Below are positions 401-64,000 of a stretch of 64,000 bases of DNA, piece by piece (the first letter of the stretch is position 1; every line of letters begins with the position of its first letter). Origin of the DNA: Sipunculus nudus (lineage: Eukaryota > Annelida > Sipuncula > Golfingiida > Sipunculidae); NCBI GenBank assembly GCA_026874595.1, contig CM049314.1, forward strand, positions 51,567,812 through 51,631,811. Reading direction: 5' to 3'. The notes under the pieces were generated by a model that had not been told where the DNA came from, ran no database searches, and saw only the letters and a list, made by a program, of their open reading frames with translations. The position numbers were made by a program, and so were the translations under genes.

Positions 401-1640
401 AGGTTTGTCATGTCAAGCTGGTCATATGAGACAAAATGCCAAAAACTAGAACTACTTTGATGTAAAAGGCGTTATAAGCATTTCAGTGACACTTCGTTTG
501 TTCACGTTGCACAAGATATGGTGCGAGATTTGGGCAGACTTATGGCTTTATCTAATCAAGCAGTTCATTCGGACAAAATGCCGAAAACTAGACCTTCGTA
601 CCTATAAAAATCGCCGAGTTAAAAGCATTTTGGTGAAATCTCGTGTTTTCTCGTTTGACGAGATACGGTGCGAGATTGTGCCTGATTTGGAGTTCTGTCA
701 TGTCAAGCGGGTCATGTGGAACTAAATGCTGAAAACTAGACCTGTCTAGCAGCAGTTCCGTGAAATGTCGTGTTTTCTCGTTTGACGGGATACGGTGCGA
801 GATTTTGCCTGACATGCATGTGTGTCGTGTCAAGCTGGTCTAGTGGAACAAAATGCCGAAAACCAGACGTGTCTAGCTGTAAAACTGGCCGAGTTATAAC
901 CAATGCCGTGAAATCTCATTTTTTCTCGTTTGACGAGATACGGTGCGACATTCGGCCTGACTTTCAGTTCTGTCATGTCCAGCAGGTCATGTGAAAGAAA
1001 ATGCCGAAAACTAGACCTGTCTAGCTGTAAAACTCGCCGAGTTATAAGCATTTCCGTGAAATCTCGTGTTTTCTCGTTTGACGAGATAGGGTGCGAGATT
1101 TGGCCTGACTTGCACATCTATCGTGTCAAGCTGATCATGTGGAAGGAAATGCCGGAAACCAGACGTGTCTAGCTGTAAAACTGGCCGAGTTATAAGCATT
1201 TCCGTGAAATTTCGTGTTTTCTCGTTTGACGAGATACGGTGCGAGATTTTGCCAGACTTGCATATCTGCCGTGTCAAGCTAGTCTAGTGGAACTAAATGC
1301 CGAAAACCAGACGTGTCTAGCTGTAAAACTGGCCCAGTTATAAGCATTTCCGTGACATCCCGTGTTTTCTCGTTTGACGAGATACGGTGCGAGATTTGGC
1401 CTGTCTTGTAGCTCTGTCGTGTCAAGCTTGTTTGGTGGAACGAAATGCCGAAAACCAGACCTGTCTAGCTGTAAAAGTCGCCGAGTTATAAGCATTTCCG
1501 CGAAGTCTCGTTTTTTCTCGTTTGACGAGATATGGCGCGAGATTTGGCGTGACTTTCAGTTCTGTCGTGTCAAGCTGGTCATGTGGAACAAAATGCCGAA
1601 AACTAGATCTGCCTAGCTTAAAAACTGACAAAGTTACAAA
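400..1640 (+). repeat. S148 satellite-like tandem array 1
   Basis: About eight head-to-tail monomers of roughly 148 bp. Each carries the dyad CTAGACCTGTCTAG, the segment GCCGAGTTATAAGCATTTCC and a second dyad built from TCTCGTTTGACGAGA. The regular spacing of these landmarks gives the period. Monomers differ by scattered substitutions, so the array is not freshly amplified. Many short open frames lie on both strands because 148 is not a multiple of three; they are translations of the repeat and not genes. Closely related arrays occupy 2390-4230, 4830-6050, 17090-18110, 19240-20260 and 29990-30390. Confidence 0.85.
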
Positions 1641-2005
1641 AAAATGGTCGTGTTATTTCCAATTTCCATGATTTTTGCCCAAAAAATGTAACCATGGTAA
1701 CGGCAAATTTAAGTAAGCTACATATCAAAAGAAAGGCCAGGTGATGACGAAAAAAATGAGCTATTGCAGAAGTGGATAAGCCTATTTATGGCGAAGTTAT
1801 AGTGCAAAACCCGTTAACCACACCTGTCGTGACCTTGACCCTTGACCTTGGAGCAATGTTGACCAAAAACAATAGGGTTCCAGGGTGTTCGGTTGTCAAT
1901 CAACCCTGTAAGGGTCATGTCGATTGCTGCAAAATTGTGGCCAGGAGAGCGCAGACAAACACACAAAAAAACAAAAAAACAAAAAAACAAAAAAACAAAC
2001 AGACA
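1640..2005 (+). repeat. X-box-like plus TGACC half-site module (copy 1)
   Basis: This module follows S148 arrays. It starts with GACAAAGTTACAAAAAATGG, then carries the perfect palindrome GTAACCATGGTAAC at 1688-1701. A conserved stretch (AAGGCCAGGTGATGACG, TTTATGGCGAAGTTATAG) leads to clustered TGACC half-sites around 1828-1850, then AAAAACAATAGGG. It ends in a CACAAAAAAACAAAA tract. Other copies start near 3785 (truncated), 4225, 6055, 18645, 20800, 28040 and 29300. A GTG-initiated frame across the module is conserved between copies only as far as the DNA is; no coding signal is seen. Confidence 0.8.
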
Positions 2006-2150
2006 AATGGACATACGCAACTGACCAACATGCTTGCCGGAAATCTTCCGGCAAGCAACAAATGGACATACGCAACTGACCAACCAACTTGCCGAAATCG
2101 AAGATTTCCGGCAAGCAATAAACAAACAAACAAGATGACCAGAGGTCACT
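2005..2150 (+). repeat. Hairpin minisatellite (array h2)
   Basis: Two hairpin units follow an A-rich tract: CTTGCCGGAA-ATC-TTCCGGCAAG, then the longer GAA-loop version. Each is preceded by ACATACGCAACTGACC. The structure matches the array at the left edge of the window. Confidence 0.8.
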
Positions 2151-2389
2151 CGCTTGCCGGAAATGGAAATGATACAGACAGATAGACAGAGAGTGCATGT
2201 AGAAACAGTCATATGAATGAGCAACATTGTGGGGGCAGCAGAAACGGAAAATATTTTTATTTATGCATGCTGACCTTTAACAGCTGCATATCTTTCTAGT
2301 GTAAAAGGGACCAAGTTCAAAATTTTTTCATGAAATCCCGTTAATCTCGTTTGACAAGAAGCAGTGAGACGTTTTTCAGGTTTGTCATG

Positions 2390-3785
2390 TCAAGCTGGCC
2401 AAATGATATGATATGCCGAAAACTAGACCTATCTAGCTATAAAAGCCGCTGAGTTATAAGCATTTGCATGAAATCTCGTGTTTTCTCGTTTGACGGGAAA
2501 TGGTGCGAGCTTTGGCGAGATTTCCAGTTTTGTCATGTCAGGTTTGTCAAATATTACAAAATGCCAGAAACTAGACCTGTCTAGCTGCAAAAGTCGCCGT
2601 GTTATCAGCATTTACGAGAAATCATGTTTTTTTCTCGCTTGACGAGATATAGTACGAGATTTGGCAAGACGAGCAGTTTTATTATGTCAAGACGGCCAAA
2701 CGTTACGAAATGGCGAAAACTAGATCCGTCTAGCTGTAAAAGTCGCCGAGTTATAAGCATTTCCGTGTACTCTCGTGCTTTCTCGTTTGACGATATATGG
2801 TGCAGGATTTGGCCAGTCTTGTAGATTTGTCATATCAAACTCTCTGAATGTTATGAAATGGCGAAAACTACATCTGTCTAGCTGTAAAAGTCGCCGAGTT
2901 ATTAGCATTTCTGTGAAATCTCCTTTTTTTATCATTTGACGAGATATGGTGCGAGATTTGGCCAGTCTTGCAGGTTTGTCATGTCAAGCGGGTCATGTGG
3001 AACTAAATGCCGAAAACTAGACCTGTCTAGCTGTAAAACTCGCCGAGTTATAACCAATGCCGTGAAATCTCATGTTTTCTCGTTTGACGAGATACGGTGC
3101 GACATTCGGCCTGACTTTCAGTTCTGTCATGTCCAGCAGGTCATGTGAAAGAAAATGCCGAAAACTAGACCTGTCTAGCTGTAAAACTCGCCGAGTTATA
3201 AGCATTTCCGTGAAATCTCGTGTTTTCTCGTTTGACGAGATAGGGTGCGAGATTTGGCCTGACTTGCACATCTATCGTGTCAAGCTGGTCATGTGGCAGG
3301 AAATGCCGGAAACCAGACGTGTCTAGCTGTAAAACTGGCCGAGTTATAAGCATTTCCTTGAAATTTCGTGTTTTCTCGTTTGACGAGATACGGTGCGAGA
3401 TTTTGCCAGACTTGCATATCTGTCGTGTCAAGCTGGTCTAGTGGAACTAAATGCCGAAAACCAGACGTGTCTAACTGTAAAATTGGCCCAGTTATAAGCA
3501 TTTCCGTGAAATCCCGTGTTTTCTCGTTTGACGAGATACGGTGCGAGATTTGGCCTGTCTTGCAGCTCTGTCGTGTCAAGCTTGTTTGGTGGAACGAAAT
3601 GCCGAAAACCAGACCTGTCTAGCTGTAAAAGTCGCCGAGTTATAAGCATTTCCGCGAAGTCTCGTTTTTTCTCGTTTGACGAGATATGGCGCGAGATTTG
3701 GCGTGACTTTCAGTTCTTTCGTGTCAAGCTGGTCATGTGGAACAAAATGCCGAAAACTAGATCTGCCTAGCTTAAAAACTGACAA
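2390..3785 (+). repeat. S148 tandem array 2
   Basis: About nine monomers of roughly 148 bp in direct orientation. The first four (to about 2930) belong to a more diverged subfamily (GCCAAATGATATG, TTTTATTATGTCAAG variants) that also opens the arrays at 17.09 kb and 19.24 kb. The rest match the subfamily of arrays 1 and 3. This segment order is shared between arrays, so whole blocks were copied rather than single monomers. Confidence 0.85.
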
Positions 3786-4310
3786 AGTTACAAAAAATGG
3801 TCGTGTTATTTCCAATTTCCATTATTTTTGCCCAAAAAATGTAACCATGGTAACGGCACTTGCATATCTGTCGTGTCAAGCTGGTCTAGTGGAACTAAAT
3901 GCCGAAAACCAGACGTGTCTAGCTGTAAAACTGGCCCAGTTATAAGAATTTCCGTGAAATCCCGTGTTTTCTCGTTTGACGAGATACGGTGCGAGATTTG
4001 GCCTGTCTTGCAGCTCTGTCGTGTCAAGCTTGTTTGGTGGAACGAAATGCCGAAAACCAGACCTGTCTAGCTGTAAAAGTCGCCGAGTTATAAGCATTTC
4101 CGCGAAGTCTCGTTTTTTCTCGTTTGACGAGATATGGCGCGAGATTTGGCGTGACTTTCAGTTCTGTCGTGTCAAGCTGGTCATGTGGAACAAAATGCCG
4201 AAAACTAGATCTGCCTAGCTTAAAAACTGACAAAGTTACAAAAAATGGTCGTGTTATTTCCAATTCCCATGAATTTTGCCGAAAAAAATGTAACCATGGT
4301 AACGGCAAAT
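3785..4310 (+). repeat. Truncated X-box module followed by a partial S148 re-duplication
   Basis: The X-box module (palindrome at 3841-3854) breaks off at CGGCA and is joined directly to the middle of an S148 monomer. That stretch runs about 2.5 monomers and ends in a second X-box module (palindrome 4290-4303). The sequence from about 3860 repeats that from about 3412 nearly exactly. This looks like an internal tandem duplication of about 450 bp with its breakpoint in the module. Confidence 0.75.
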
Positions 4311-4830
4311 TTAAGTAAGCTACATATCAAAAGAAAGGCCAGGTGATGACGAAAAAAATTAGCTATTGCAGAAATGGATAAGCCTATTTATGGCGAAGTT
4401 ATAGTGCAAAAACCGTTAACCACACCTATCGTGACCTTGACCCTTGACCTTGGTGCAATGTTGACCAAAAACAATAGGGTTCCAGGGTGTTCGGTTGTCA
4501 ATCAACCCTGTAAGGGTCATGTCGATTGCTGCAGAATTATGGCCAGGAGAGCGCAGACAAACACACAAAAAAACAAACAAGATGACCAGAGGTCACGCGC
4601 TTGCCGGAAATGGAAATGATACAGACAGATAGACAGAGAGTGCATGTAGAAACAGTCATATGAATGAGCAACATTGTGGGGGCAGCAGAAACGGATAATA
4701 TGTTTATTTATGCATGCTGACCTTTAACAGCTGCATATCTTTCTAGTGTAAAAGGGACCAAGTTCAAAATTTTTTCATGAAATCCCGTTAATCTCGTTTG
4801 ACAAGAAGCAGTGAGACGTTTTCAGGTTTG
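4310..4830 (+). repeat. TGACC half-site module and linker with the hairpin array deleted
   Basis: This is the same module order as at 1700-2390, but the hairpin minisatellite is missing. A short CACAAAAAAACAAACAAG joins straight to the GACCAGAGGTC linker at about 4580. Comparing copies shows that the hairpin units are gained and lost as a unit between the A-rich tract and the linker. Confidence 0.7.
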
Positions 4831-6050
4831 TCATGTCAAGCTGGTCATATGTGACAAAATGCCGAAAACTAGAACTACTTTGTTGTAAAAGGCGCCGAGT
4901 TATAAGCATTTCAGTGACATCTCGTTTGTTCACGTTGCACAAGATATGGTGCGAGATTTGGGCAGACTTATGGCTTTATCTAATCAAGCAGTTCATATGT
5001 GACACAATGCCGAAAACTAGACCTTCGTACCTGTAAAAATCGCCGAGTTAAAAGCATTTTGGTGAAATCTCGTGTTTTCTCGTTTGACGAGATACGGTGC
5101 AAGATTGTGCCTGACTTGGAGTTCTGTCATGTCAAGCGGGTCATGTGGAACTAAATGCCGAAAACTAGACCTGTCTAGCTGCAGTTCCGTGAAATGTCGT
5201 GTTTTCTCGTTTGACGGGATACGGTGCGAGATTTTGCCTGACATGCATGTCTGTCGTGTCAAGCTGGTCTAGTGGAACAAAATGCCGAAAACCAGACGTG
5301 TCTATCTGTAAAACTCGCCGAGTTATAACCAATGCCGTGAAATCTCATGTTTTCTCGTTTGACGAGATACGGTGCGACATTCGGCCTGACTTTCAGTTCT
5401 GTCATGTCCAGCAGGTCATGTGAAAGAAAATGCCGAAAACTAGACCTGTCTAGCTGTAAAACTCGCCGAGTTATAAGCATTTCCGTGAAATCTCGTGTTT
5501 TCTCGTTTGACGAGATAGGGTGCGAGATTTGGCCTGACTTGCACATTTTTCGTGTCAAGCTGGTCATGTGGAAGGAAATGCCGGAAACCAGACGTGTCTA
5601 GCTGTAAAACTGGCCGAGTTATAAGCATTTCCGTGAAATTTCGTGTTTTCTCGTTTGACGAGATACGGTGCGAGATTTTGCCAGACTTGCATATCTGTCG
5701 TGTCAAGCTGGTCTAGTGGAACTAAATGCCGAAAACCACACGTGTCTAGCTGTAAAACTAGCCTAGTTATAAGCATTTCCGTGAAATCCCGTGTTTTCTC
5801 GTTTGACGAGATACGGTGCGAGATTTGGCCTGTCTTGCAGCTCTGTCGTGTTAAGCTTGTTTGGTGGAACGAAATGCCGAAAACCAGACCTGTCTAGCTG
5901 TAAAAGTCGCCGAGTTATAAGCATTTCCGCGAAGTCTCGTTTTTTCTCGTTTGACGAGATATGGCGCGAGATTTGGCGTAACTTTCAGTTCTGTCGTGTA
6001 AAGCTGGTCATGTGAAACAAAATGCCGAAAACTAGATCTGCCTAGCTAAA
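4830..6050 (+). repeat. S148 tandem array 3
   Basis: About eight roughly 148-bp monomers, matching array 1 monomer for monomer. The two arrays are related by a constant offset of about 4,429 bp from about 240 to 1,770 and on into the next module. This is strong evidence of a multi-kilobase block duplication. Confidence 0.85.
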
Positions 6051-48959: not shown

Positions 48960-48968
48960 ACAAATGGC
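48960..48968. repeat. Target-site duplication of element C, left copy
   Basis: ACAAATGGC, repeated exactly at 62350-62358 immediately outside the opposite TIR. Nine bases, as produced by Mutator-like (MULE) and some other DDE transposases. Confidence 0.85.
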
Positions 48969-49264
48969 GGCTGTGTGTAAAACTCGGAAGTCAGTAGCCG
49001 GAAGTCGGAAGCCAAGGCTTTTTCATAAATATAAAGTGCTAAAACATGCACAAGTTACCTCTAGATCAACACCATTTTAATATCTATTGATAGAATAAAG
49101 TCTGTTCTATCATTCCATGAAGAATCATTTGTTATCCATTTTGTAATCTGAAAGTTATAGACGATTTTGTGCTCGGAAGCCACTCGGAAGCGCCGGGATG
49201 CGGTCCAATTAAATGTGTAAAACTCGAAAGTCACGGAGACGCACTGGTCAACATATGGTCAGTT

Positions 49265-50911
49265 TAGAGCCACATGGCAAATGCAGTTTCATTGCATGCA
49301 TATATTTAAAGTGCTTATGATTGTGCTTGTAATGAGTATATAATACAATACATTGTACATACTAAAATATGATAAAAGAAATCCGAATACGACTTTAAAA
49401 ATACATTTATAAATTACGATATCATTAATATTAAAACAGTTTTCTTATATTTTCCTTATGAGAGCAAATACCCAATATATTTAATATTATCATAATATAT
49501 TGGAAATTCAATATATCCTGATAGGACAACGCTGGAACAGCAACAAACATATGTGTACCGAATAAGACGTAATTACATTAAATGTGTTTTATAACGTGAG
49601 AATTCTACGATATTTTTTTTAAATTAAGATATATCATAGTAAGGGATACAATAGAACAAGTCATATATTACATACTTATACATGTGTGATTATAAAATCT
49701 AATATGTTTTTATGGTTAAGCATAAAGTTGGTTTTAAACAATAAATAAAATATTTTCAACCTTTTCTTTCATACTTATTCAACCATGATATTTATTTTCT
49801 ATTTATATATTTTTATTTTTCTTGATATTTTTACAACATTATTAAAATAATTTAACTTCAAATAAATTGATATTTCAGAAAATTTGAAAATATTTTTATA
49901 ATTCATGTCACTCTCAGACGTTATGTGCGTAATAAGGGCATCTAAAAACAGAATGTGTTCCTAGCTTCAATTAAGGAACTGCACAGAGTGACGATTACAA
50001 CGATCTCGATAAAGAAATTCCTATTTTGTGTTAGGAGGAGATCGTTGAATGTCAAATCTTAGATAAATAATCTCATAAATAGGATCTTATTGACACATAA
50101 GACATGGGAGGCTTCAAGTAAAAGTCTGTATGTTTGGAGGTTAATTGGTACACGTGCCTTAAAGAAGCTACGGATATAGGCATTTTTATCCAACCGGTTG
50201 CTTAGCTAAGATTCATACCTTGAAATTCCATGCATAAAAACTGTTCACGTCATACAATAATGAAATGAATCCTTTCCGATGATTTTTCGACAAATACCGA
50301 TCAAATCAATTACTGTGGAAAATCTGGTTTAATATTTACCGCCAAGATAAAAATGTCAATGATAAATATCAATTATTCCCATTCTTCTTTGATAAAATAG
50401 CAAGTAAACGTCTTTATAAAAAAATCCTTTTCATGCACATGAATATTATCTATACACTCGATCACAATCTTTATTTGATACTTATATATTTACCCTTTTC
50501 GTAATTAAATTGACAAAAAAAAAACAAGTTAACAGGAAGCTTATTCTTAGGCCTGCATGGTAATCACTGAACAATAGTCGGAATTCTATGAAGTAGTGCC
50601 GTTCGTTTTCGGACCGGACTCCCTTCGGACCTCATAGTTGCTTGTATCAGGTTCTGTTATAAAACTGATTATTTAATATCTATAAGAGACTGCTCAACAA
50701 AGCCGTTTTACTCTGTTACGGTTTATTTTCAAACATTTACTGAATCATTTTTGCCAAGCTAAATGTTTTGTTGATGTTTTATTGATTTGTTGTTGAATTT
50801 TATTTCTGTTGGCGCGATTTACATTATGTATATAAAAAGTATTAATGTTTGTGCCGTCTGGTTTTTTTATAAATTTCGGAACATTAATTTTCCGAACATT
50901 GTACATTACAG
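49265..50911. other. Element C interior, left of the retrotransposon
   Basis: AT-rich DNA without open frames or recognised motifs. The last five bases (TACAG, 50907-50911) are the left copy of the LTR element's target duplication. Confidence 0.6.
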
Positions 50912-51082
50912 TGTGATGTACTCTGCTTGAAGAACGAGCTTAACACTTGTATGCCCAAGACTGTGTTTTTATTGTGCCGCACATAAGCGACAAGCGGGAT
51001 ACCTTTTTTGACCATGACCGATCACTTACACGGGCCGCTTAGCTCAGTAACAATATATGTAAACACGGTACAATACATTACA
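50912..51082 (-). repeat. 3' LTR of the Ty3/gypsy element (171 bp)
   Basis: On the minus strand it starts TGTAATGTATTG and ends GAGTACATCACA (TG...CA). It differs from the interrupted 5' LTR at only a few positions (for example CACATAAG against CGCATAAG), so insertion was recent. It is flanked on the left by TACAG, matching 60404-60408. Confidence 0.9.
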
Positions 51083-51093
51083 TCTCCCCTCTT
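51083..51093 (-). promoter_or_regulatory. Polypurine tract
   Basis: The minus strand reads AAGAGGGGAGA immediately before the 3' LTR. This is the expected primer site for plus-strand DNA synthesis by the retrotransposon RT. Confidence 0.8.
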
Positions 51094-51391
51094 CAGATAA
51101 AGTGAGATATGAACACAATACATGAAGTATACTTAAAGGTAAATTGCAGTAAGTCCTGAAACACTTAATGATTGTCCGGTTATATCATTGGGTGGGTATA
51201 GATTTAGTAGCAAGTACAAGTTATCAAACTTAGGCATGTATTAATTGAATAAGCCTGTTTACTGAAATTTAGGGCAATTAGTTAAACTTAACACTACACA
51301 AGGAAGGAGAGGTTACCAGCACATCACTTCCGCAGGTGACTTTACCTCACCTGTCCCTAACTAACGATATGCGAGTTACTGATCTTAAATT

Positions 51392-54300
51392 CTATAAGTT
51401 CAGTCTGTCTGGTGGCTTTACGACCCTTCCATATCTGGTGGTTCTTTGAGAGTTTCGAGGTGATGGCGGTGCGGCTGTGACACTTGGTGTTACTTGCGCT
51501 GAGGAAGGTTCTGGTGATGTGGCTGTTTCCTCATTGTCATACCAATTATGATCAGGAAGCTGATGACGCGACTGGTTAGCAACTGCAGTGCTGGAACGAA
51601 GATCCTGTCTGGTGCGACGGAACAGCTGCTCACCGTTGTTAACAACATAAGAACGTGGAGAACTGTGTGGTTCCACAACAACTCCGGGGGTCCATGTATG
51701 ATGACCAGGATAAGGTGCCATTCTAATTTCCTCTCCAGGTTTAAGTGATGTGCGGGGCTCACTTGCTCTTTTGCGATCATAATAATATTTCTGGTTAGCT
51801 TTATCACTGTCTAAAAGCTGTTCGACTTTCTCTGTGCTATGCCCTGTTGGCATCAGAAGCGTACTAGCTGCTGGTAACAAGTTACGTGGTCTTCTGCCCA
51901 TAAGTAACTGTGCTGGTGACAAACCTACTGACTCTAGGGGGGTTGTCCTATAATCTAATAAGGCAAGGTGTTTGTCTGTAGCCTTTTTCCACAGTTTCTT
52001 GACTGTCTGCACAGCCCTTTCTGCTTCACCATTGGAGTGAGGTGTGTGGGGTGATGACGTCTTATGTATAATGTTGTAGGTCTTGCAGAAAATACTAAAC
52101 TCTTCTGAAGCATACTGGGGACCATTGTCAGTCCGAAGAATGGTAGGTATGCCATGCCTGCTGAACTGTGACTTAAGTGATTCAATAGTTGCGCGACTAC
52201 ACAAGTTCTTGAGTTCATCAACTTCTACAAATTTTGAATAGTAGTCCACTAATAACAAATAATGCTTACCTTCAAGTTCAAAAAGGTCAGAGGCTACTTC
52301 TTGAAATGGAAGCGTTGGAGTCTTTGTTGGTTTCATCGGTTCTCTTGGTAGTCTGTTTTGAAAGTCTGCACATTTGGAACAGTTTTTAACTAGCTCTTCT
52401 ATAGCTGAATTCATCCCAGGCCAGTAGAGTACTTCTCTGGCACGTTGTTTACTCTTGACTATGCCTAGGTGCGACTGGTGCACTAACTTCAGCATATCTG
52501 CATGCATACTGGGAGGAATCACGATACGCATTCCTTTGTATACGATACCATCAAGTATGCTAAGTTGACTTCTAGAGTCCCAATATGGACGTATTGATAT
52601 GGGTACTTCTTTCCTGAAGTCTGGCCATCCTGATTTGATTATTTGTAGCAAGTCACTAAGCTCTGCTGTTGTAAGCTCTTTGATATCAGTGTATTTCTGG
52701 TCACTGACTGATATAAAACTTAGCATGGAGATGGATTCCAGGCTTTCCATCTCTGGTTCACTTTCAGTTAGTTGAGCTCTTGACAAGGTATCAGGCAATT
52801 CCATGTCCTTGCCCCGTCTATACTTAACAGTAAGATCATGCCACTGTAGACGTAGACGCATCCGTTGTAAGCGCATTGGGGTTTCTAGCAATGGTTTCTT
52901 GTATATATCCTCCAGTGGCTTATGGTCATTGTAAACAGTGACGTGTTTACCAAATATATACTGGTGAAACTTTGTACAAGCATGCACAATAGATAACATT
53001 TCCTTTTCAATCTGTGCATACCGTGTTTCAACATCAGTTAATGATCTTGACGAGTATGCGACAGGCTTGTTATCTTGGAGAATAACAGCTCCTAGTCCTG
53101 AGCTACTAGCATCACAAAATATTTCCACTGGCCTTGAAGCATCAAAAAACTGTAGCACTGGCGGGTTGCTGCAAAGTTCCTTAAGCTTGTCATATGCTAC
53201 CTGCTGAGCTGGTTGCCAAGTGAACTCAACATCTGCTTTGAGAAGCTGACAAAGTGGTGCATCTACTTCACTGAGGTTTGGAATGAATTTTGAGAGGTAG
53301 GTGACAAATCCTAAAAAGCGACGGACACCATCTTTGTCTCTGGGCGGCGGCATGCTCTTGACTGCCTGGACTTTAGCTGGGTCTGGTTTGAGACCTTCAC
53401 CTGTGAGTAGATGTCCTACGTAAGGTACACATGATTGTCTGATGTGACACTTAGTGAAGTTCAGCTTCAGATTGTATGATGTAGCTCTTTCTACTACTTT
53501 CCTTAGTACAGCATCATGTTCTTCCATGGATGGAGTGGCAATGAGAATATCGTCCATTATAGCTGTTGCCCCATTTATGCCTTCGAGCATTTCATCCATT
53601 ATGCGCTGAAATAATTCTGGCGCACATTTCAGTCCGAATGGAAGTCTGAGCCAACGAAATCTGCCGATAGGCGTATTGAAGGTTGTCAATATTGATGAGG
53701 CTTCATCAAGTTCAATTTGTAGAAATCCCGATTTTGCATCCAGTACGGACAAAACCTTTGCATTTGGCATCGATGATACAACCTCTTCAATAGTGCGGAG
53801 GGGATAGTGCGCCCGTTTGATTACTTTATTCAAATCACCAGGATCAATACAGATCCGTATCTTGTTGTTTCGTAGAACTGCAACCATGGAACTTACCCAT
53901 TCGGTGGGCTGGTCTACTTTGGCGATGTAGCCATTGTCCACCATTTCTTTTAACTTTTCGATAATTCTAGGCTTCAATGCTGCCGGCTGTCGTCTCACTG
54001 GATGTACCACACCCTTTGCGTCTGGATCTATTTTGATTGTGTATTTGCCTGGCAAAGTACCTGTTGTACGTGCAAGATCTGGAAAGCAGTCGAGGCCTGG
54101 TGGAGTTTCGGGTTTGTTAGTTGCATGGCTGCTAGTGGCGCCATCTATGGCTTGCAGGCGAGCAATCAGACCTAGTTGTTCTGCAGCGGCTCCACTGATT
54201 ATGTTTTCCTGTGAAATGTCCACAATTTCAAACTCAGCCATTGTCTCACAGTGTTTATGCTTGAGGGAGAGATCAACTGCAGCTACTGGTTTAATCCTGT

Positions 54301-55171
54301 GGTTTGAGTATGTACGTAGCACTTTGTTAGATTTCTTAAGCTGACCTTCATGCAGGAGTTGCTGATAACTATCAACAGTTATTGTGTTGCAATGTGCTCC
54401 TGTATCTATGCGGAACTGAACTTTCTGTGACAGAATTTCTATGGACTCTGTCCACTTGTCAGACTCTGTCAGTTCACCGGTTTGTGTCAATTTAATGTCA
54501 AGGACTTCTAGGTCATCAAAAAATTCATCCGGAGCTGGGTCTGGCTCAACATCAATCAATCGGATCAATCGTTTACGACACACAGCTGCCCAGTGATTAG
54601 GCTTTTTGCAGAATGAACAAGATGATCCTTTGGCTGGACATATGCCTGAGTTCCATCTGTGGCGAGAATCTTTGCCACAGTGTGTACATTTACTTTGATC
54701 ATGCTGAGAGCTTAATGTGCGCTTACCAGCTGACTGCTGCTCAGACGGAGCTTTAGACTGTATCTGACCACAATGTGTTTGTGAATGCCGATAGATAGTT
54801 TGCTGACTGTTGAGATCATGAACATTCTTTCTAGGTCCTGTATAATGCTGTTTTGGTCTACCTTTAGGTTTAACAGACAATGAAACTGCTGACAAATGAG
54901 AACCCTCATCTCTAACAATTTTCATTTGTTTCTGTGACATTTCAAACTGCTGGGGTATTTCTATGGCTTTAGCCAAGGTCAATTCCTCACCTTTATCAAG
55001 CAGTCTTTCTTGTACACGTTTTTCACGGACTCCAGCAATGATTGCATCAATAAGCATGTCATCTGGATCACTGTATTCGCAGTCCATTAAAATCAGACGC
55101 AAATCTTTGACAAATCGATCAAAACTTTCTGTTTGTCCTTGTTTACGCTGTTTAAATCTGTGGCGGGGCAA
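51392..55171 (-). CDS. pol: Ty3/gypsy gag (3' part)-pol polyprotein
   Basis: About 1,259 residues. The frame opens at a TTG with no nearby ATG, because it is the downstream part of a gag-pol frame broken near 55160. In order: gag remainder (1-100); two zinc knuckles (162-198, CTHCGKD and CSFCKKPNHWAAVC); aspartic protease with DTGA (256-259); reverse transcriptase (about 375-600) with Asp478 in LDAKSG and the catalytic box MDD (539-541); RNase H (about 680-800) with Asp687, Glu724 and Asp749; integrase HHCC zinc domain (H898, H901, C931, C934) and catalytic core with D962, D1015 and E1049; then a basic Ser/Pro-rich tail. All catalytic residues are present. Such proteins copy the element's RNA into DNA in cytoplasmic particles and integrate it in the nucleus. 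Confidence 0.95.
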   Translation of the reverse strand: MPRHRFKQRKQGQTESFDRFVKDLRLILMDCEYSDPDDMLIDAIIAGVREKRVQERLLDKGEELTLAKAIEIPQQFEMSQKQMKIVRDEGSHLSAVSLSVKPKGRPKQHYTGPRKNVHDLNSQQTIYRHSQTHCGQIQSKAPSEQQSAGKRTLSSQHDQSKCTHCGKDSRHRWNSGICPAKGSSCSFCKKPNHWAAVCRKRLIRLIDVEPDPAPDEFFDDLEVLDIKLTQTGELTESDKWTESIEILSQKVQFRIDTGAHCNTITVDSYQQLLHEGQLKKSNKVLRTYSNHRIKPVAAVDLSLKHKHCETMAEFEIVDISQENIISGAAAEQLGLIARLQAIDGATSSHATNKPETPPGLDCFPDLARTTGTLPGKYTIKIDPDAKGVVHPVRRQPAALKPRIIEKLKEMVDNGYIAKVDQPTEWVSSMVAVLRNNKIRICIDPGDLNKVIKRAHYPLRTIEEVVSSMPNAKVLSVLDAKSGFLQIELDEASSILTTFNTPIGRFRWLRLPFGLKCAPELFQRIMDEMLEGINGATAIMDDILIATPSMEEHDAVLRKVVERATSYNLKLNFTKCHIRQSCVPYVGHLLTGEGLKPDPAKVQAVKSMPPPRDKDGVRRFLGFVTYLSKFIPNLSEVDAPLCQLLKADVEFTWQPAQQVAYDKLKELCSNPPVLQFFDASRPVEIFCDASSSGLGAVILQDNKPVAYSSRSLTDVETRYAQIEKEMLSIVHACTKFHQYIFGKHVTVYNDHKPLEDIYKKPLLETPMRLQRMRLRLQWHDLTVKYRRGKDMELPDTLSRAQLTESEPEMESLESISMLSFISVSDQKYTDIKELTTAELSDLLQIIKSGWPDFRKEVPISIRPYWDSRSQLSILDGIVYKGMRIVIPPSMHADMLKLVHQSHLGIVKSKQRAREVLYWPGMNSAIEELVKNCSKCADFQNRLPREPMKPTKTPTLPFQEVASDLFELEGKHYLLLVDYYSKFVEVDELKNLCSRATIESLKSQFSRHGIPTILRTDNGPQYASEEFSIFCKTYNIIHKTSSPHTPHSNGEAERAVQTVKKLWKKATDKHLALLDYRTTPLESVGLSPAQLLMGRRPRNLLPAASTLLMPTGHSTEKVEQLLDSDKANQKYYYDRKRASEPRTSLKPGEEIRMAPYPGHHTWTPGVVVEPHSSPRSYVVNNGEQLFRRTRQDLRSSTAVANQSRHQLPDHNWYDNEETATSPEPSSAQVTPSVTAAPPSPRNSQRTTRYGRVVKPPDRLNL

Positions 55172-55448
55172 TGCGTTTGTTTTTTCTAGGACGGATATAA
55201 TTCATGAATTTGTCCAGTACTTTAGAGGGATCCTCCTTTTCACCATCCTGCCAGTCTAGAGTTTTATAAATTTCCCTACCTTGTTCGCCTAGCCATGTGC
55301 CGAGCCACCCTGCCTGCTGCTTGGCCGTCTGACCGGAAAGGGGGCCATTAAGTACAAAGTCAACATGGTTTCGAAATCTGTCGAACTCCTGGTACAAATC
55401 TGGCGAGTCCCAGTCGATGTTTGGGTGTTCGAACTGCGCAGTTGCCAT
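55152..55448 (-). pseudogene. gag: Ty3/gypsy gag, N-terminal part, cut by a frameshift
   Basis: A 98-codon frame from an ATG 75 bp after the 5' LTR. It resembles the first part of retrotransposon gag (DWDSPDLYQEFDRFRNHV, then a GREIYKTLDW segment and FMNYIRPRKN). The rest of the same gag domain, including the ESFDRFVKDLR segment, is in the +1 frame of the following pol frame. The break is inside gag rather than between gag and pol, next to an A6 run. A single-base indel is therefore more likely than programmed frameshifting. Confidence 0.8.
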
Positions 55449-55504
55449 ATTCCTGTGCCTGACAGTTTAAACTGGCTTTTTAGTTCAGGGTTTGTAGAAA
55501 ATTA

Positions 55505-55522
55505 TCCCATTATCTGACACCA
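55505..55522 (-). promoter_or_regulatory. Primer-binding site, tRNA-Leu type
   Basis: Directly after the 5' LTR the minus strand reads TGGTGTCAGATAATGGGA. The first ten bases (TGGTGTCAGA) are complementary to the 3' end (TCTGACACCA) typical of eukaryotic tRNA-Leu; the remainder matches loosely. Confidence 0.7.
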
Positions 55523-55632
55523 TGTGATGTACTCTGCTTGAAGAACGAGCTTAACACTTGTATGCCCAAGACTGTGTTTTTATTGTGCCGCGCATAAGCG
55601 ACAAGCGGGACCCCTTTTTTGACCATGACCGA
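55523..55632 (-). repeat. 5' LTR of the Ty3/gypsy element, gene-proximal half
   Basis: This half runs from ACATCACA (minus-strand LTR end) to the insertion point of element B. The last nine plus-strand bases (CATGACCGA, 55624-55632) are element B's target duplication. The other half resumes at 60343. Confidence 0.9.
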
Positions 55633-55648
55633 GGGAGGGTATAAATTC

Positions 55649-56606
55649 GGCAGTGTGTAAAACCCGGACCCCACGGATCCCGGACCCCCAAAACCTATTT
55701 CCACACTGTCGATTTTATATACAGATAAAAGCACCCCTGTTGCTGATATAAGAACAAAGTAAAGTCACCTAATGTTAAAACTTTGTAAATAACCATTTCA
55801 ATGAAAGATTTAAGTATACAAAATATTTTGCTGGAGACGGACCCCAACTGCTTGACTAAGGTGAATGTTACATTTTGACGGACCCTAGTAAACGCCGCTC
55901 ATATTTTCATTTATGACTCCATGAGAAAGAATAAACACTCGTGTCAAACATTAAATATGATTATTTGTTATTTTACGTGAAAATATTATATAGTGCAGGC
56001 ACACTCGGAGAGATTTATTTTAAGTGCGCCAGCGGTCATTGCATGCGGACCTGAGACTGATAGGTTTCGTGTTCCATTCATGAACAACCATCCGATTTAA
56101 AGTTGGTAATAACATAATTACCCAAAGGAATGGTTGATTACTTGCATTGTAAGAAACTCCAGGTACAAACATAATGATTTTATAAATGTTCTTATTATTT
56201 TGTTATTACGATAAACATGAAACAAATAGCAAATATAAGAATATGAAGAAAAAGTAAGACAACATGAAAATATATAAAGAAATAAAAACAGAATAACTTA
56301 ATCACATGGGTGTTATGCCTAAACGTGATGTTAAAATATGTACTAAAGAAATGGTAAAACAACGAGTAAAAGCAAGGGGTCCTTGGGATCCGTGAGGTCA
56401 GTGCGCCAGGGTCCGTAAGTGTTAATTATAAATTTTATGCAAAACTTGCCATTTTTATGGATTTTTAACACACATAATATAAAATACGTCTTTAGATACC
56501 ATTCTGCTAATTATCTCGACAAATTACCTTGAAAGTTTTAAGAATTATAAATTTTTCTTGGGGTCCGGGATCCGGGGTCCGTGGGGTCCGGGTTTTACAC
56601 ACTGCC
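55649..56606 (+). mobile_element. Element A, copy 1 (MITE-like, 958 bp)
   Basis: The ends are GGCAGTGTGTAAAACCCGG and its reverse complement, followed inward by C-rich repeats of CGGACCCC and CGGATCCC. It sits in element B's left TIR. The flanks GTATAAATTC (55639-55648) and GTATAATTC (56607-56615) are a 9-bp target duplication in which the left copy has gained an A, as shown by B's intact right end. No coding frame. Its interior matches copy 2 in reverse (CCCCTGTTGCTGATATAAG, CAAAATATTTTGCTG). Confidence 0.85.
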
Positions 56607-57298
56607 GTATAATTCGCTGATCAGCGCGCTGATCAGCGGTCTGCAGTATAAAACGCTGATCAGCGCGCTGATCAGCGACCTTTCAATTAAAGCATTAATT
56701 TCAGGCAAATTAGCCCCCATAAAGCAACCTTCGACTAGTTTGTGATTAAATATGATTAAACGCACCTTTTCTATCAATGTTTCGTATTATCAAACATATG
56801 CATATATTTTATTGTGTTAATTATTATACATGAAACGCAACCTACCTGCCAGTGACTATTTCGCTGATCAGCAGCGCTGATCATCGACCTTTCAATCCAA
56901 GCATTAATTTCAGGCAAATTAGCCCCAATATAACAATCTCTATGACTATTATGTGATTAAGTGTGATCTGAAGACACATGTTCTATAAGTATTTCGTATT
57001 TACAAACACACGAATACATTTTTAATGTATTACTTATTATGCATGAAACCTTTCTACCACCTATTATTACGCTGATCAGCAAACTGCGCAATCGCTTGAC
57101 GATGATCAAGTGCTCATCGGCAACGATTTACGTATTTCTTGACTATGATAACTGTCATAGTAATTCTCTATAATGGTAACATAGAGGACTCCCAGTTGTT
57201 TTACCTATTTCCTGTGAAAACGGAATGATTGCCAATACATCGTACCACATACAATTTACAAATATCCGTTCCCCACCGACCACTCGGAGATATTAGCT

Positions 57299-57318
57299 GA
57301 CAGTAGGGGGCGCTGCAG
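57299..57318 (+). promoter_or_regulatory. CTCF-like core in the left TIR of element B
   Basis: GACAGTAGGGGGCGCTGCAG matches the CTCF pattern CAGTAGGGGGCGCT. The mirrored site is at 59621-59640 in the right TIR, so the element carries two convergent-type copies about 2.3 kb apart. Sequence is direct; binding is inference. Confidence 0.4.
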
Positions 57319-57424
57319 TAATTTGTTGGTAGGTGTTAACCGGCCAGATGATAGAAAAAGCTGAGATATATACTAAATTAGTTTGAATGTATTTAAAAAT
57401 TTGAATTTATTTACAATATCATGC

Positions 57425-59505
57425 ACTATTTTTTTAGTGAAAATGCCACTAATGAACCCACAGCAATATATTGTCGACTGTGGATTTTTTTTTTTTGGCA
57501 ATCGCTAATATTGTTTAATATTGTTTCAATAAATTTGAAAGTAGGCCTATAAGAACAGGTAAAACAACATGTATTTTTATCAGACAAAAGTGAGAGCGCA
57601 TTAACTTAATTGTTAAGAAGAAGACATATTTAATCAATTTCCAATAAGAAACCGTAATAGGATTTACAATTAAATGAAAGGGTCTTTCTAAGAAAAACTA
57701 TAGGTTTCAACAAGTACAGCATCTGAAAAATAACATCTTAATATTTATTTTATAGAGTCTAACTAGCAATAAAAATGTAAACCATATAAAATTATTTTCA
57801 GCAGAGCAGGCTGTTTCATGAAAAGTTATAGTTTTGGATAATTTAATGCATTAGTGTATTATCAATTTCAACACCGTTTCAGACTTAAAGCAATGGTTGG
57901 AAATTATATTTATGAAAGATTGAGCTGGAGACTAGTATTTTCATGCGAATTTCACGGTCCCACATAATTAATTGAGAAAAAATAAGAAGGGTACACTTGT
58001 GCAATGTACTTTATAATAAAAAAAATATATTTTAACCTTGGAAATTGCGTATTTTTAATTGTATGTGTTACGTTTAGATCCAGAAACAAAATACAACTGC
58101 AAACCACAGAAGGTATAATGCAATAAATAGAAGGAAAATATAGCAATCTTTCTCGGTCAATAAAACTGTTGGTGATAAAAATATTTTCTAATATGTCTCT
58201 AAGTCATTTTTTTGTTCTTAAATAAATGAATATTTTCAATATATAACGGTGCTGAAGAAGGAGAACGGTGTTGAATTAATATAAATGAAATCATTGGCAA
58301 AATTATTACTTAAAGCATGCAGACTTCTTTTATAATAAATATTTTAAAAGTTCAATATTTAAAAGTACATATCACATTGATCCCTATAAAATCGATGAAA
58401 TTCTGAATAACAATGCTAGTTTGTAGAATTTAGATGTTACATCTATCCTTTTTTTGTTTCAACATCGTTCATCGACATTCACTTCCGTTAAAAGTTAAAA
58501 ATAACGGTGATGATTTACAATGGTTTTGAAAAAAAGTTATGATATTCATTAAAAAAGATTAATTACTCCTAAAACCTTTCTATAGAGTACTCAGTAAATT
58601 CATATGTTGATAGTGTGAGCTGTATCCCAAAACAATGAAAAGCATTCCTACTTCAATCATTTTGGAGTAATATATAAGTAACGGTGTAAGAGCAATAAAT
58701 ATACGGAAATTTTTACACAATTATGGAAACTTCCGGTTGTAAATGAAAAAAATACATACCGATAATGATGGTTTTATGGAGTCATTTTGTGACGTTATTT
58801 CAACTTCTACTTCAACTTCAACTTTATCGTCTCTATAACGGTGTTGAAAAAAACGTTCTGGCGACCCACATTTTAAACGCAAAAGAGTGGGAAAATAAGA
58901 GGGATGTAAAGAAACTTGTGGAAGTTTTTAAGGAACGATTATATTAAACATGAAGAGTGAAAAAATCCTCGGGCTATATACGTACCATTCTTAATAAAAA
59001 TAAGAGGATGTCATTTATATATCTTTTTATATGTCTTTTATTATGGCAAGGGACAGGTAATTTTTAATGACCTTTGAACCATTAAGTATAAATTTTAAGC
59101 ATGTAAGGTATTATTTCGCTAAATAAATAAGCTCAAATTAAGCAGAAAATATGGTACTGCAATTCAATCCCGAAAGCAAAATGACAGATTATATATATAT
59201 ATAATTTAAAATTATATGTATAATATATGGAGTTGGCATTGGTATGTCATGCGTGTGCTTTTTTTATACTGCAATATATTTTCTGTGATACTTTAAATAA
59301 ATCTTCACTCATTCTATTTGAGACACTGATGAGTGGCTTGTGAAATGGTCTGTCAGTTTTCATTTGTGTGAAAAAAATTTACTATTCTCATGGGGAAAAC
59401 TGAATAAATGCACTGGCTCTTTGGGAAAGAAGTATAGTGTATAGGTCAATTGCATACTTAATAAATTTCATTAAAATCAAAGGTACTCATTTTAGAGCTT
59501 TGCGA
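57425..59505. other. Element B interior, no coding sequence
   Basis: AT-rich DNA. The best frame is 60 codons (58765-58947) with no known domain, and its start lies in a segment also found, decayed, at 44545-44960. No transposase motif is seen. Confidence 0.6.
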
Positions 59506-60333
59506 TATACATTTAACATATTTTATTTTAATAAATTGAAATTTTATATACATTCAAACCAAGTGTATATCTCAGCTATTTTTATCACCTGGCCGGTGAA
59601 CACCTACCAACAAATTACTGCAGCGCCCCCTACTGTCAGCTAATATCTCCGAGTGGTCGGTGGGGAACGGATATTAGTAAATTGTATGAGGTACGATGTA
59701 TTGGCAATCATTCCGTTTTCACAGGAAATAAGTAAAACAACTGGGAGTCCTCTATGTTACCATTATAGAGAATTACTATGACAGTTATCTTAGTCAAGAA
59801 ATACGTAAATCGTTGCCGATGAGCACTTGATCATCGTCAAGCGATTGCGCAGTTTGCTGATCAGCGTAATAATAGGTGGTAGAAAGGTTTCATGCATAAT
59901 AAGTAATACATTAAAAATGTATTCGTGTGTTTGTAAATACGAAATACTTATAGAACATGTGTCTTCAGATCACTCTTAATCACATAATAGTCGGAGATTG
60001 TTATATTGGGGCTAATTTGCCTGAAATTAATGCTTATGTTGAAAGGTCGATGATCAGCGCTGCTGATCAGCGAAATAGTCACTGGCAGGTAGGTTTCGTT
60101 TCATGTATAATAATTAACACAATAAAATATATGCATATGTTTGATAATACGAAACATTGATAGAAAAGGTGCGTTTAATCATATTTAATCACAAACTAGT
60201 CGAATGTTGCTTTATGGGGGCTAATTTGCCTGAAATTAATGCTTTAATTGAAAGGTCGCTGATCAGCGCGCTGATCAGCGTTTTATACTACTGACCGCTG
60301 ATCAGCGCGCTGATCAGCGAATTATACCCTCCC

Positions 60334-60403
60334 CATGACCGATCACTTACACGGGCCGCTTAGCTCAGTAACAATATATGTAAACACGGTACAATACATT
60401 ACA
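60334..60403 (-). repeat. 5' LTR of the Ty3/gypsy element, distal half
   Basis: It resumes with the duplicated CATGACCGA and continues TCACTTACACGGGCC to TACATTACA, matching 51013-51082. It is followed by TACAG, the right copy of the LTR element's 5-bp target duplication. Confidence 0.9.
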
Positions 60404-61110
60404 TACAGCATTAAAATACCGAGGAAATATCAAATCGTTCTGCAAAAACAGAAACAATTTTATTTTATATGAACGTTAATGTTACAATCGGCATCATATC
60501 TATTAACAAATGTATTGTGTATTTATTTCTGTCAAGGTTTTGTTTATGTTTGTTTTTCTTTTTTTAAAGTTGTCCAATACATCTGATGAATCATTATCAA
60601 ACAATTCAATGTGAAATATTATGCATATTATGCTGTCTATTTTGGCAACATTTTAAAACTTGAATTGAAAAGGGTCTCATTTTACAGCATGAACATATCG
60701 GGGAAAAAATCACACTTTGAATTTGTAAAATGTGCATTCTGATCATGAAATATAAAATATATTTTGGAATCAATTAAATATTACATAATAGATTTTTGAG
60801 TCAAGAGATACATAATCCTGATGACAATTTTTATCAATGGAACATGAAAAGGTTTGTCAATTTATACATGAAACATAAAACATTTTATCGAAACAACCTT
60901 TAGAAACATTTCCAGGACGTCGTGTTTCTGTCAAATTTTAATTCTATTTATCATTTTAATTAATCAATTATTACTATGTTGTTTTACAAAATGAAAAAAA
61001 ATATATTACCACAAAATATTATTTTAAGAAAACAGCATCATGAATGTTACACAACAGATTGAATTATAAAAAATGAGTCATTTGGAAGATATTGAAAATG
61101 CTTGACACGC
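60404..61110. other. Element C interior, right of the retrotransposon
   Basis: AT-rich non-coding DNA; nothing recognised. It continues the sequence interrupted at 50911. Confidence 0.6.
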
Positions 61111-61189
61111 ATGCTGACCATTTGATGACCAGTGCATGGCCGTGGCTTCCGAGTTTTACACATTTGGACTACTACCCGGCTCTTCCGAG

Positions 61190-62113
61190 GGCAGTGTGTA
61201 AAACCCGGACCCCGGACCCCGGATCCCGGACCCCAAGAAAAAACCTATAATTATTAAAACTCTCATATGGTAATTTGTCGAGATATTTTGCAGAATAGTA
61301 TCTTAAGACGTTTTTTACATTATGTGGGTTAAAAAACATAAAAAGTGGTCTGTTTTGCAACAAAAGTTGATAAATTACCCTACGGACCGTGGCGCACTGA
61401 TCTCACGGATCCCATGGACCCCTTTTACCATTTCTTTTGTACATATTTAAACATCCCATTTAGGCATAACAACCATATGATTTAGTTATTGTGTTTTTGT
61501 ATCTATATTATTTTCATTTTGTCTTATTTTTTCTTCATGTTCTTATATTTGCTATTTGTTTCATGTTTAGCGAAATAAAAAGTATATATAATAAGAACAT
61601 TTACAAAATCATTATGTTTTTACCTGTCGTTTCTTGAAATGCAAGTCATCAACAATTTCTTTGGGTAATTATATTGTTACCAACAGTAAATTGCATTGAT
61701 GTTCATGAATGGAACACAAAACCCTGCATGCATTGACCGCTGGCGCACTTCAGTGTGCGTGCACTATAATATTTTCACTTGAAATATCAAATAATCATAT
61801 TTAATGTTTGACATGAGTGCTTATTCTTTCTCATGGAGTCATAAATGAAAATATGAGCGGGGTTTCCAGGGTCCTTTAAAAATGGAATAGTCATCAAAGT
61901 CGAGCAGTTTGGGTCCATCTTCAGCAAAATATTTTGTATACTTAAAATGTTCATTGAAATGGTTATTTACAAAGCTTCAACACTGAGGGACTTTACTTTG
62001 TTCTTATATCAGCATCAGGGGTGTTTTTATCTGTATATATAATCGACAGTGTGGAAATTGGTTTCTGGGGTCCGGGGTCCGGGATTCGTGGGGTCCGGGT
62101 TTTACACACTGCC
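61190..62113 (-). mobile_element. Element A, copy 2 (924 bp, inverted relative to copy 1)
   Basis: It has the same 19-bp ends as copy 1 and an interior that matches in reverse complement (CAGCAAAATATTTTG near the right, CTTATATCAGCATCAGGGGTG at about 62008). It lies in the right TIR of element C. CTTCCGAG occurs just left of it (61182-61189) and again 8 bp beyond its right end (62122-62129), so an exact target duplication is not clear. Confidence 0.8.
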
Positions 62114-62349
62114 CGCGGGCACTTCCGAGTGACTTCCGAGATGGCTTCCGAGCACAGAATCTACTATAACTTTCAGATTATTGAATTAATAACTATGATT
62201 ATTCACAGAATGATAGAACAACCCCTAGTGTATCGATAAAAATCGAAATAGTATTGATGTAATGGCATTTTGTATATGCCGCTTTATTGTTTTGTTTCTA
62301 CAAAAATCCTTGGCTTCCGACTTCCGGCTTCCGAGTTTTACACACAGCC

Positions 62350-62358
62350 ACAAATGGC
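62350..62358. repeat. Target-site duplication of element C, right copy
   Basis: ACAAATGGC, identical to 48960-48968. Confidence 0.85.
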
Positions 62359-62359
62359 T

Positions 62360-62420
62360 TGGTAAAACCCGGACTCGGACTCCGGACTCGGTGCAAATAA
62401 TCGCCGGACCCCGAAACAAC
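62360..62420. repeat. Third end with the GGTAAAACCCGGA pattern
   Basis: GGTAAAACCCGGACTCGG and repeated CGGACTC motifs immediately follow the right target duplication of element C. They resemble the termini of A (GTAAAACCCGGACCCC) and C (GTAAAACTCGGAAG). It may be the end of a related element (D) into which C inserted; the opposite end was not identified. Confidence 0.4.
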
Positions 62421-63000
62421 CGCCTATAAATAATGTTTGGGATGTTGTTTCATTAAATATTTACTTGTGTTTGAAGCTTTGCTATTTATTCTTTCAGTTT
62501 TGAAAATTGCTGTGTCTTAAATCATCTGTAACATCCACTCTGAACGTTTTATTTTACTGGACTCCATCTCGGACTCAAACAAAGGCATATGCTGTAAGCC
62601 AGGCAACTGGTGCATACTTAACGGGAACATCTGTCGCCGTTTCCAAGGAATAAAACTCAGAGGTGGACTGTCAGATATTGGAAAATCAAACTCAGTTGTG
62701 CACCTACTACATAAATAACAGTTACCATTGTATGAAACATCCCATGAATACAGAAAGTGTGTTTGTCATTAGTATTTATAGTAGCCTATCTAAAAACTCA
62801 ATATGTGAAATTACCTAATTACCCTAATTACACCATAAATCATACCACATATACATTTATATTATTGGTTATTATATATAAATATATATAAAAAAGCATT
62901 ATTAAATTTTATAAATAAAAATATATTAATAACCATACGCAAGTTTAATTATTTATACAACATTCATACATGTTACTGTTATGGGGTGACATAAAAGCCG
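62420..63000. other. AT-rich low-copy DNA, nothing recognised
   Basis: No open frame, repeat or motif of note. Confidence 0.6.
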
Positions 63001-63100: not shown

Positions 63101-63350
63101 ATTTTCCGCTGAATAATTTCTCTTCTTAACATTATAATTCCATCATATTTGTATTATATATTTTGTCAGTAGTGTTTGATTAAAATATTTCATATCTTAT
63201 TATACATTATGATATGTTATTAAACAATAAATAAAAAATATTATTAAATATATTTAAATACATAAAAAATACGATTGACCAATTTATTATATTATACAAA
63301 ATTTATATTTTATATTTTAACCCGCGAAACACGGAATTCCTAAATTATGT

Positions 63351-64000
63351 ACCTGTAAGAAGCATCCCTTGTCGCTTTACTATCATCATATACAGCTGGG
63401 CTTCAGATGCCTGGCTTAAATGCCTGCTAGAAGCAAGGCATCCCATGTCGCTTTACTATCATTCTATACAGACAGTCCTCAGATGCCTAGCTTAAATACC
63501 TGCTAGAAGCCAGGCATCCCATGACGCTTTACTATCGTTTTATACAGACGGGCCTCAGATGCCTGGCTTAATTAAATACCTGCTAGAAGCCAGGCATCCC
63601 ATGTCGCTTTACTGTCGTTTTATATACAGACGGGCTTCAGATGCCTGGCTTAAATACCTGCTACAAGCCAGGCATCCCATGTCGCTTTACTATCGTTATA
63701 TATAGACGGGCTTCAGATGCCTGGCTTAAATACCTGCTACAAGCCAGGCATCCTATGTCGATTTACTATCGGTATATACAGACGGGCTTCAGATGCCTAG
63801 CTTAAATACCTGCTACAAGCCAGGCATCCCATGTCGCTTTACTATCGTTATATATAGACGGGCTTCAGATGCCTGGCTTAAATATCTGCTAGAAGCCAGG
63901 TATCCCATGTCCCTTTACTATCGTTATATACAGACGGGCTTCAGATGCCTGGCTTAAATACCTGCTAGAAGCCAGGCATCCCATGTCGCTTTACTATCGT
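63351..64000 (+). repeat. 76-bp minisatellite with an 11-bp hairpin, runs off the window
   Basis: TTCAGATGCC recurs about every 76 bp from 63402 (one interval of 82 bp, from an insertion in GGCTTAATTAAATACC and an extra TA), about 8.5 units to the window end. Each unit contains ATGCCTGGCTT and its reverse complement AAGCCAGGCAT separated by about 13 bp, then CCCATGTCGCTTTACTATCG. Changes such as GCCTAGCTT or CAGGTAT affect single arms. Confidence 0.9.

Follow-up and report, generated by a model that had tools for sequence, protein, structure and literature searches.

Nested elements in the window

The window analysed here is a 64,000-nucleotide stretch of the genome of the annelid Sipunculus nudus (assembly GCA_026874595.1; C9:51567812-51631811). 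Towards its right end, five elements are lodged within one another (Table 1). The outermost is the left arm of E, a Rehavkus-like Mutator-like element (MULE), and the non-coding element C sits at its left tip. C holds a Ty3/gypsy-type long terminal repeat (LTR) retrotransposon and, separately, a copy of the non-coding element A (A2). The 5' LTR of the retrotransposon is split by the non-coding element B, whose own tip is split by another A copy (A1). We consider it very probable that the transposons at this eukaryotic locus form a genuine nested stack and that E belongs to the Mutator superfamily; A and C, along with a further family D, are probably moved by an E-type transposase. A sequence-only reading of the same DNA had described four levels, C, the LTR element, B and A1, with A2 in addition; this nesting was borne out and the ends it had called were correct.

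The nesting of transposons as such is ordinary. What the stack provides is a clean, self-controlled log of successive insertions, which defines several repeat families with tested ends and ties non-coding families to a coding Rehavkus-like element via a common tip motif.

Table 1. Positions of the nested elements and their parts in the window (TSD, target-site duplication; TIR, terminal inverted repeat)
Feature	Position	Strand	Features of the sequence
C, non-coding, at E's left tip	48969-62349	.	TIR GGCTGTGTGTAAAACTCGGA at both ends
Left 9-bp TSD of C	48960-48968	+	ACAAATGGC, read directly
Right 9-bp TSD of C	62350-62358	+	ACAAATGGC; last one to three bases are E's tip
C right arm, outer part	62114-62349	.	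170/209 aligned sites match C left arm
Ty3/gypsy-type LTR retrotransposon in C	50912-60403	-	TSD TACAG, 50907-50911 and 60404-60408, 5/5
3' LTR, 171 bp	50912-51082	-	intact; unsplit CATGACCGA site, empty-site control for B
Long open frame	51392-55201	-	reverse transcriptase, RNase H and integrase domains
5' LTR, first part, 110 bp	55523-55632	-	ends in TSD CATGACCGA; 107/110 identical to 3' LTR
5' LTR, second part, 70 bp	60334-60403	-	starts with second CATGACCGA; identical to 3' LTR
B, non-coding, long inverted arms, in 5' LTR	55633-60333	.	TSD CATGACCGA, 9/9
A1, 958 bp, non-coding	55649-56606	+	16 bases inside B's left tip; TSD GTATAAATTC left, GTATAATTC right
A2, 924 bp, in C's right arm	61190-62113	- (opposite to A1)	TSD TCTTCCGAG / ACTTCCGAG
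E left arm (Rehavkus-like MULE), outermost	62356-62583	+	tip GG(TA lost)CTTGGTAAAACCCGGACTCGG; genome matches

Target-site duplications and empty sites

The ends of the elements, their duplications and the order of nesting can be read directly from the DNA. Exact TSDs flank C, the LTR element and B, as the sequence-only reading had claimed, with matches at 9/9, 5/5 and 9/9 positions, respectively. By chance, a 9/9 match at a single pair of ends is expected with a probability of 3.8e-6. The boundaries of C are further confirmed by the recurrence of its start in the other genomic C regions fetched, and the ends of the LTR element recur at 12 other LTRs.

The window also contains its own empty-site controls, one each for B, A1 and A2. 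The splitting of the 5' LTR by B is confirmed by the intact 3' LTR, and that of B's TIR by A1 is confirmed by B's right arm, which holds GTATAATTC unsplit. For A2, whose position in C's right arm is likewise confirmed, no TSD had been given. Comparison with C's left arm, which aligns with both A2 flanks, revealed a duplication matching at 8/9 positions and the corresponding empty site (CTCGGAAG, at 49183-49190).

Genome-wide recurrence of the same ends

The genome searched was the assembly of 1,426,538,692 bases in 153 contigs. It is chromosome-scale, with 17 large contigs of 61-111 Mb (C1-C17; C9 has 79.8 Mb), followed by C18-C20 of less than 0.1 Mb. The search for further copies that the earlier reading had proposed was run genome-wide, and the same ends and TSDs recur for A, B, C and the LTR element.

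With A1 as query, 804 candidates were found, of which 40 were scored; 37 other matches run end to end within 4 bases. Among 19 A copies with flanks, the TSD matches at 9/9 positions in 11, at 8/9 in three and at 9/10 in one, one has 7 shared bases and three have none. Two A copies on different chromosomes (L030 and L031) share a 9-bp duplication that is inverted between them (GTTAGTGTC / GACACTAAC), perhaps because the DNA around them has been copied.

The B search returned 322 candidates. In 37 of the 40 arm matches scored, one of which is the window's own and several of which are the two arms of a single element, the tip lies at query base 1. Nine of ten B copies with both flanks carry a 9/9 TSD. 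The tenth (C10:6852048-6855912) is bracketed by a second B tip and 12 bases of flank, which are present on both sides as a perfect palindrome (L052 and L053, C10:6852020-6855940). The two inverted arms of the window's B are identical at 766/786 positions, and without A1 the element measures ~3.73 kb, compared with 3.38-3.87 kb in ten paired copies.

The C copies give a similar picture. Among 20 regions fetched, ten have a 9/9 TSD and two more an 8/9 TSD; stripped of its inserts, the window's C would have ~2.94 kb by coordinates, against 2.46-3.23 kb in ten copies with perfect TSDs. An inverted-repeat test of the two outer flanks of C gave a score of 26, below the shuffled maximum of 30. At C14:39818703-39822347, three C-like left arms follow each other at a spacing of exactly 1,694 bp, perhaps a C-derived tandem array.

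The LTRs of the retrotransposon measure 171 bp and have TG..CA ends, and its TSD has 5 bp; the right LTR is the 5' LTR. Compared with the intact LTR, the two parts of the 5' LTR agree at 107/110 and 61/61 sites, counted without overlap. A primer-binding-site (PBS)-like stretch, TGGTGTCAGATAATGGGA, adjoins the 5' LTR and a purine tract, GAAGAGGGGAGA, adjoins the 3' LTR. The putative PBS, TGGTGTCAGA, resembles tRNA-Leu. Pfam searches with pieces of the long frame placed the pol domains in the order RVT_1, RT_RNaseH, Integrase_H2C2 and rve, with reverse transcriptase and RNase H upstream of integrase. This order is typical of Ty3/gypsy elements. The long frame is not in the same reading frame as the ATG frame that comes first next to the 5' LTR; there is one break, near window positions 55160-55200. 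Without inserts, the element has 4,782 bp by coordinates, compared with 4,783 bp for a pair on C15. The genome search gave 16 LTR matches, 12 of which are other LTRs covering bases 1-171. Exact 5-bp TSDs flank four of eight other LTR loci with flanks (the C15 pair, a C3 pair and two solo LTRs); among the remaining four, two are followed by the PBS-like stretch, one follows a purine tract and one has a 4/5 TSD.

The outermost element and a shared tip motif

Judged by its genomic matches, a fifth element, E, is present beneath C. The search with the E arm gave 102 candidates, 40 of which were scored, and 42 matches; for 28 of these, the match starts at base 62358 of the window. The family tip, read from L108 and L113-L116, is GGTACTTGGTAAAACCCGGACTCGG. 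As the family starts at 62358 and the window's tip is short of two bases, the duplication of C overlaps E by one to three bases, so that C sits just inside E's tip. An inverted E arm lies ~17.9 kb away, outside the window (C9:51647880-51648080), with a D tip in its end; most likely, this is the other end of the same E. Elsewhere, three E pairs have a 9/9 TSD (C7:47671435), an 8/9 TSD (the C16 pair) and none, respectively.

The coding content of the family was read from a sister copy of 8.3 kb (L104). Its separate frames match a MULE domain (E=1.7e-4), an Ulp1 protease (1.7e-5) and a PHD finger (1e-3), and there is a match to the IS256 model (3.2e-5). It also carries a minisatellite with 27.6 copies of a 36-bp unit, located 5' of the transposase frames. 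These weakly scoring domains point to a Mutator-superfamily element of Rehavkus-like build. In the right flank of L104 (and L112), a C-like subterminal repeat, AAAACGCGGAAGTCGGAAGTC, lies ~65 bp to the right of where a second E copy ends.

A, C and D have E's GTAAAACYCGGA motif, which takes the form GTAAAACCCGGACTCGG in E; the E part in common is GTAAAACCCGGAC. The first 8 bases of E differ from those of A, C and D. The tip GGCWGTGTGTAAAACYCGGA of A, C and D occurs 439 times exactly in the genome, and its reversed control 0 times; a scan of viral contigs for the A/C tip gave three exact matches, a count that comes without a chance estimate. By eye, CGGA-rich subterminal repeats are seen in A, C, D and E. 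Family D (L098-L101), whose tip is near-identical to that of A and C, has a 9/9 TSD in three of four copies, and the 9-bp TSDs of A, C and D fall within the 8-11 bp of the Mutator superfamily. Because of the shared tip motif, A, C and D are most likely non-autonomous elements that would be moved by an E-type transposase. B has the same TSD length and long TIRs of ~786 bp, both Mutator-superfamily traits. Since its tip is unlike those of A, C, D and E, only TSD length and long arms suggest a place for B near Mutator.

No transposase frame was found within A, B and C of the window, where stop-to-stop frames reach at most 83 amino acids. A 4.2-kb pair of A tips (L072) showed no TSD by eye, and in the four of its frames scanned only zf-RVT and one hit at E 0.08 were found. 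Near the listed A, B and C places, a single one of 131 PF10551 matches falls within 20 kb, with 0.44 expected in all. This proximity test is blind to E, whose MULE domain scores 22.4 bits and thus lies below the lowest listed match of 29.7. Thirty-nine of the listed PF10551 matches share a score of 47.6 bits, most of them in open frames of 607 amino acids, perhaps the trace of a recent MULE burst.

Several observations weigh against this reading of the locus. The A1 duplication differs by one base between its sides (one extra A), so the earlier claim of exact duplications does not extend to A1. That of A2 has one mismatch in nine positions, and its right copy is offset from A2's right end by the 7 bases CGCGGGC; it is less certain than the others because CTTCCGAG-like units recur in C's arms. 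Among the genomic copies, no TSD of at least 8/9 is present in 5/19 for A and 8/20 for C. The E tip in the window is two bases short of the family tip, and the E left arm is interrupted at 62583/62584 by another repeat (nine matches of the E search start at ~62584 without E). As no right end of this E could be recovered, a duplication of its own at this locus is hypothetical. In the sister copy, neither end is a clean family tip and three of the domain hits fall below the curated cut-offs (MULE 22.4 vs 27.6, PHD 19.5 vs 24 and IS256 23.1 vs 150 bits). Finally, any transposase for A, B and C is putative.

Order and age of the insertions

The nesting gives a simple succession. C went into the left tip of E. 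The retrotransposon and, independently, A2 then went into C. B in turn inserted into the 5' LTR of the retrotransposon, and A1 into the tip of B. The sequence-only reading regarded the order of events as fixed. This holds for which element entered which, and is slightly too strong for arrival at this locus, because an outer element could arrive already carrying its passenger, and nesting alone does not prove the order of arrival.

The near-identical LTRs had been taken to set a recent upper age for B and A1. The logic is valid; the number is weak, as the LTRs differ at three of 171 positions, two of which are neighbours, giving a 95% Poisson range of 0.36-5.1%. The divergence of the two B arms (20/786) is indistinguishable from the LTR value (Fisher p 0.78). 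We also ran the comparison of A1 with A2 that had been proposed. They differ at 92/903 sites (Kimura two-parameter distance 0.11), plus 76 gap columns, far above the 3/171 of the LTRs. A1 and A2 thus represent different A lineages, and their mutual divergence dates neither insertion.

Alternative explanations

Nesting alone is compatible with an alternative in which an inner element was already in its host when the host moved here, so that the levels would not reflect the order of arrival. B with A1, or C with its passengers, would also retain at least one whole end. The uniqueness searches covered the A1-in-B junction, the A2-in-C junction and the LTR split, and not the C/LTR or C/E junctions. 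Within this scope, the A1-in-B junction occurs once in the genome, as does the A2-in-C junction, for which the second hit, at two mismatches, represents an A copy next to its own TSD. No other LTR among the 16 matches is broken at B's site, and A1 leaves B just 16 bases of its left tip. Nothing here hence suggests that a composite has moved and left copies behind; a composite moved by cut-and-paste would be traceless. We consider prior carriage quite unlikely, and infer that each insertion occurred at this locus. Far less credible still is an assembly artefact. Several repeat families meet here and a single assembly was examined, but the C, LTR and B junctions carry exact duplications of the length expected for their class, which are not made by misassembly, and the contig is chromosome-sized.

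A different question is whether A, B and C might be Merlin rather than Mutator-type elements. Merlin TIRs end in GG and are accompanied by TSDs of 8 or 9 bp (PMC8101967), and the genome has many IS1595-type transposase matches (150 listed of 209 candidates), one of them at a distance of 1.8 kb from a C copy (L045). An IS1595 match is found within 20 kb at four of the listed B or C places, with 0.37 expected for A, B and C together. However, none of these four transposases lies between tips. Six of the 23 frames of at least 130 amino acids in 39 A and C loci were scanned, and the sole IS1595 hit lies outside the C copy. Moreover, a Merlin-type family with long open frames (L096, L097) has another start, GGTACGACT, at its left similarity boundary, and the E family, which shares the tip motif of A, C and D, codes for a MULE-type domain. 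An assignment to Merlin is unlikely, and we favour Mutator-type elements for A and C, whereas the placement of B is tentative. Many of the IS1595 matches lie on the small unplaced contigs C101-C138, which are possibly of bacterial contaminant or symbiont origin.

Possible clustering at element tips

Two of the insertions in the window are tip cases, namely A1, 16 bases inside B's tip, and C at E's left tip; the D tip in E's right arm lies outside the window. It may be asked, and can be tested, whether elements of this kind aim for the tips of related ones. In a sample that was not picked for nesting, another tip of the Rehavkus-like clan lies within 60 bp at 6/94 ends, corresponding to 5/49 A, B and C copies. 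The expected number of neighbours is 0.004-0.02, on an assumed 1,000-5,000 genomic tips. The five cases are a B beside A (L019), a C-like tip beside C (L035), a D beside C (L040), a C in B's tip (L049) and a B among B tips (L052/L053). In L040, the insertion points of C and D are 8 bp apart and each has its own perfect TSD (CTAAAATAT and TAGATTGGC).

The evidence is mixed. Four D copies (8 ends, short flanks) have no clan-tip neighbour. In 69,743 bp of distant flank there are ten tip hits, eight with two mismatches and two that are the neighbours already counted; at face value, this translates into 0.8 for the near windows. When the genome was searched for an A, C or D lying 11-41 bases from an exact B tip, the window's own case was the sole result, and inspection by eye of the exact tips listed (C1 to part of C3, part of the 439) revealed no pair placed end to end at a distance of up to 100 bp. 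These two null results speak against a strong general hot spot. As the motif set was chosen after the first cases had been seen, we regard tip clustering as suggestive and as a lead; that clan elements insert preferentially at or beside each other's tips, and that stacks grow by tip targeting, is possible, though we hold it only tentatively.

Comparison with known elements

In the Repbase summary of PMC6446971, Rehavkus is described with a 9-bp TSD, a TIR of 26-400 bp, a PHD finger and a minisatellite, and is listed from Arthropoda and Annelida; it is also mentioned in PMC13359780. E resembles it in its 9-bp TSD, long TIRs and internal minisatellite and, more tentatively because of weak domain scores, in a putative MULE-type DDE domain and PHD finger. 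In contrast to Rehavkus, the minisatellite of E (L104) lies 5' of the transposase frames and not before the 3' TIR (PMC6446971). E also has an Ulp1 protease domain, and the word Ulp1 is absent from the main text of PMC6446971. Given the different place of the minisatellite and the MULE and PHD scores below cut-offs, we call E Rehavkus-like rather than Rehavkus.

The Tm1 Mutator/Foldback elements of root-knot nematodes have 9-bp TSDs, TIRs of short tandem repeats, coding and non-coding copies and a nested case, as seen here, whereas their tip sequences are different and their transposase is of the Phantom type (PMC3169594). Nested insertions in Mutator-superfamily elements are also described for MULEs of maize and rice; the maize cases are mostly retrotransposons in coding MULEs, and few coding MULEs lie in other elements (PMC3903597). 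In size, the LTR element is comparable to Steamer-like short-LTR retrotransposons of bivalves such as MchSLE1 (4,758 bp with 185-bp LTRs vs 4,782 bp with 171-bp LTRs here). The PBS of MchSLE1 is given as tRNA-Asn (PMC11046912), in contrast to the TGGTGTCAGA found here.

Other features of the window

An Rfam search of the window at gathering cut-offs gave zero matches, and Pfam found none at E 0.1 in four long open frames elsewhere in the window. Several long tandem arrays with a 148-bp unit occupy parts of the left half (1-30400), and a 76-bp tandem array lies at the right edge (63286-64000).

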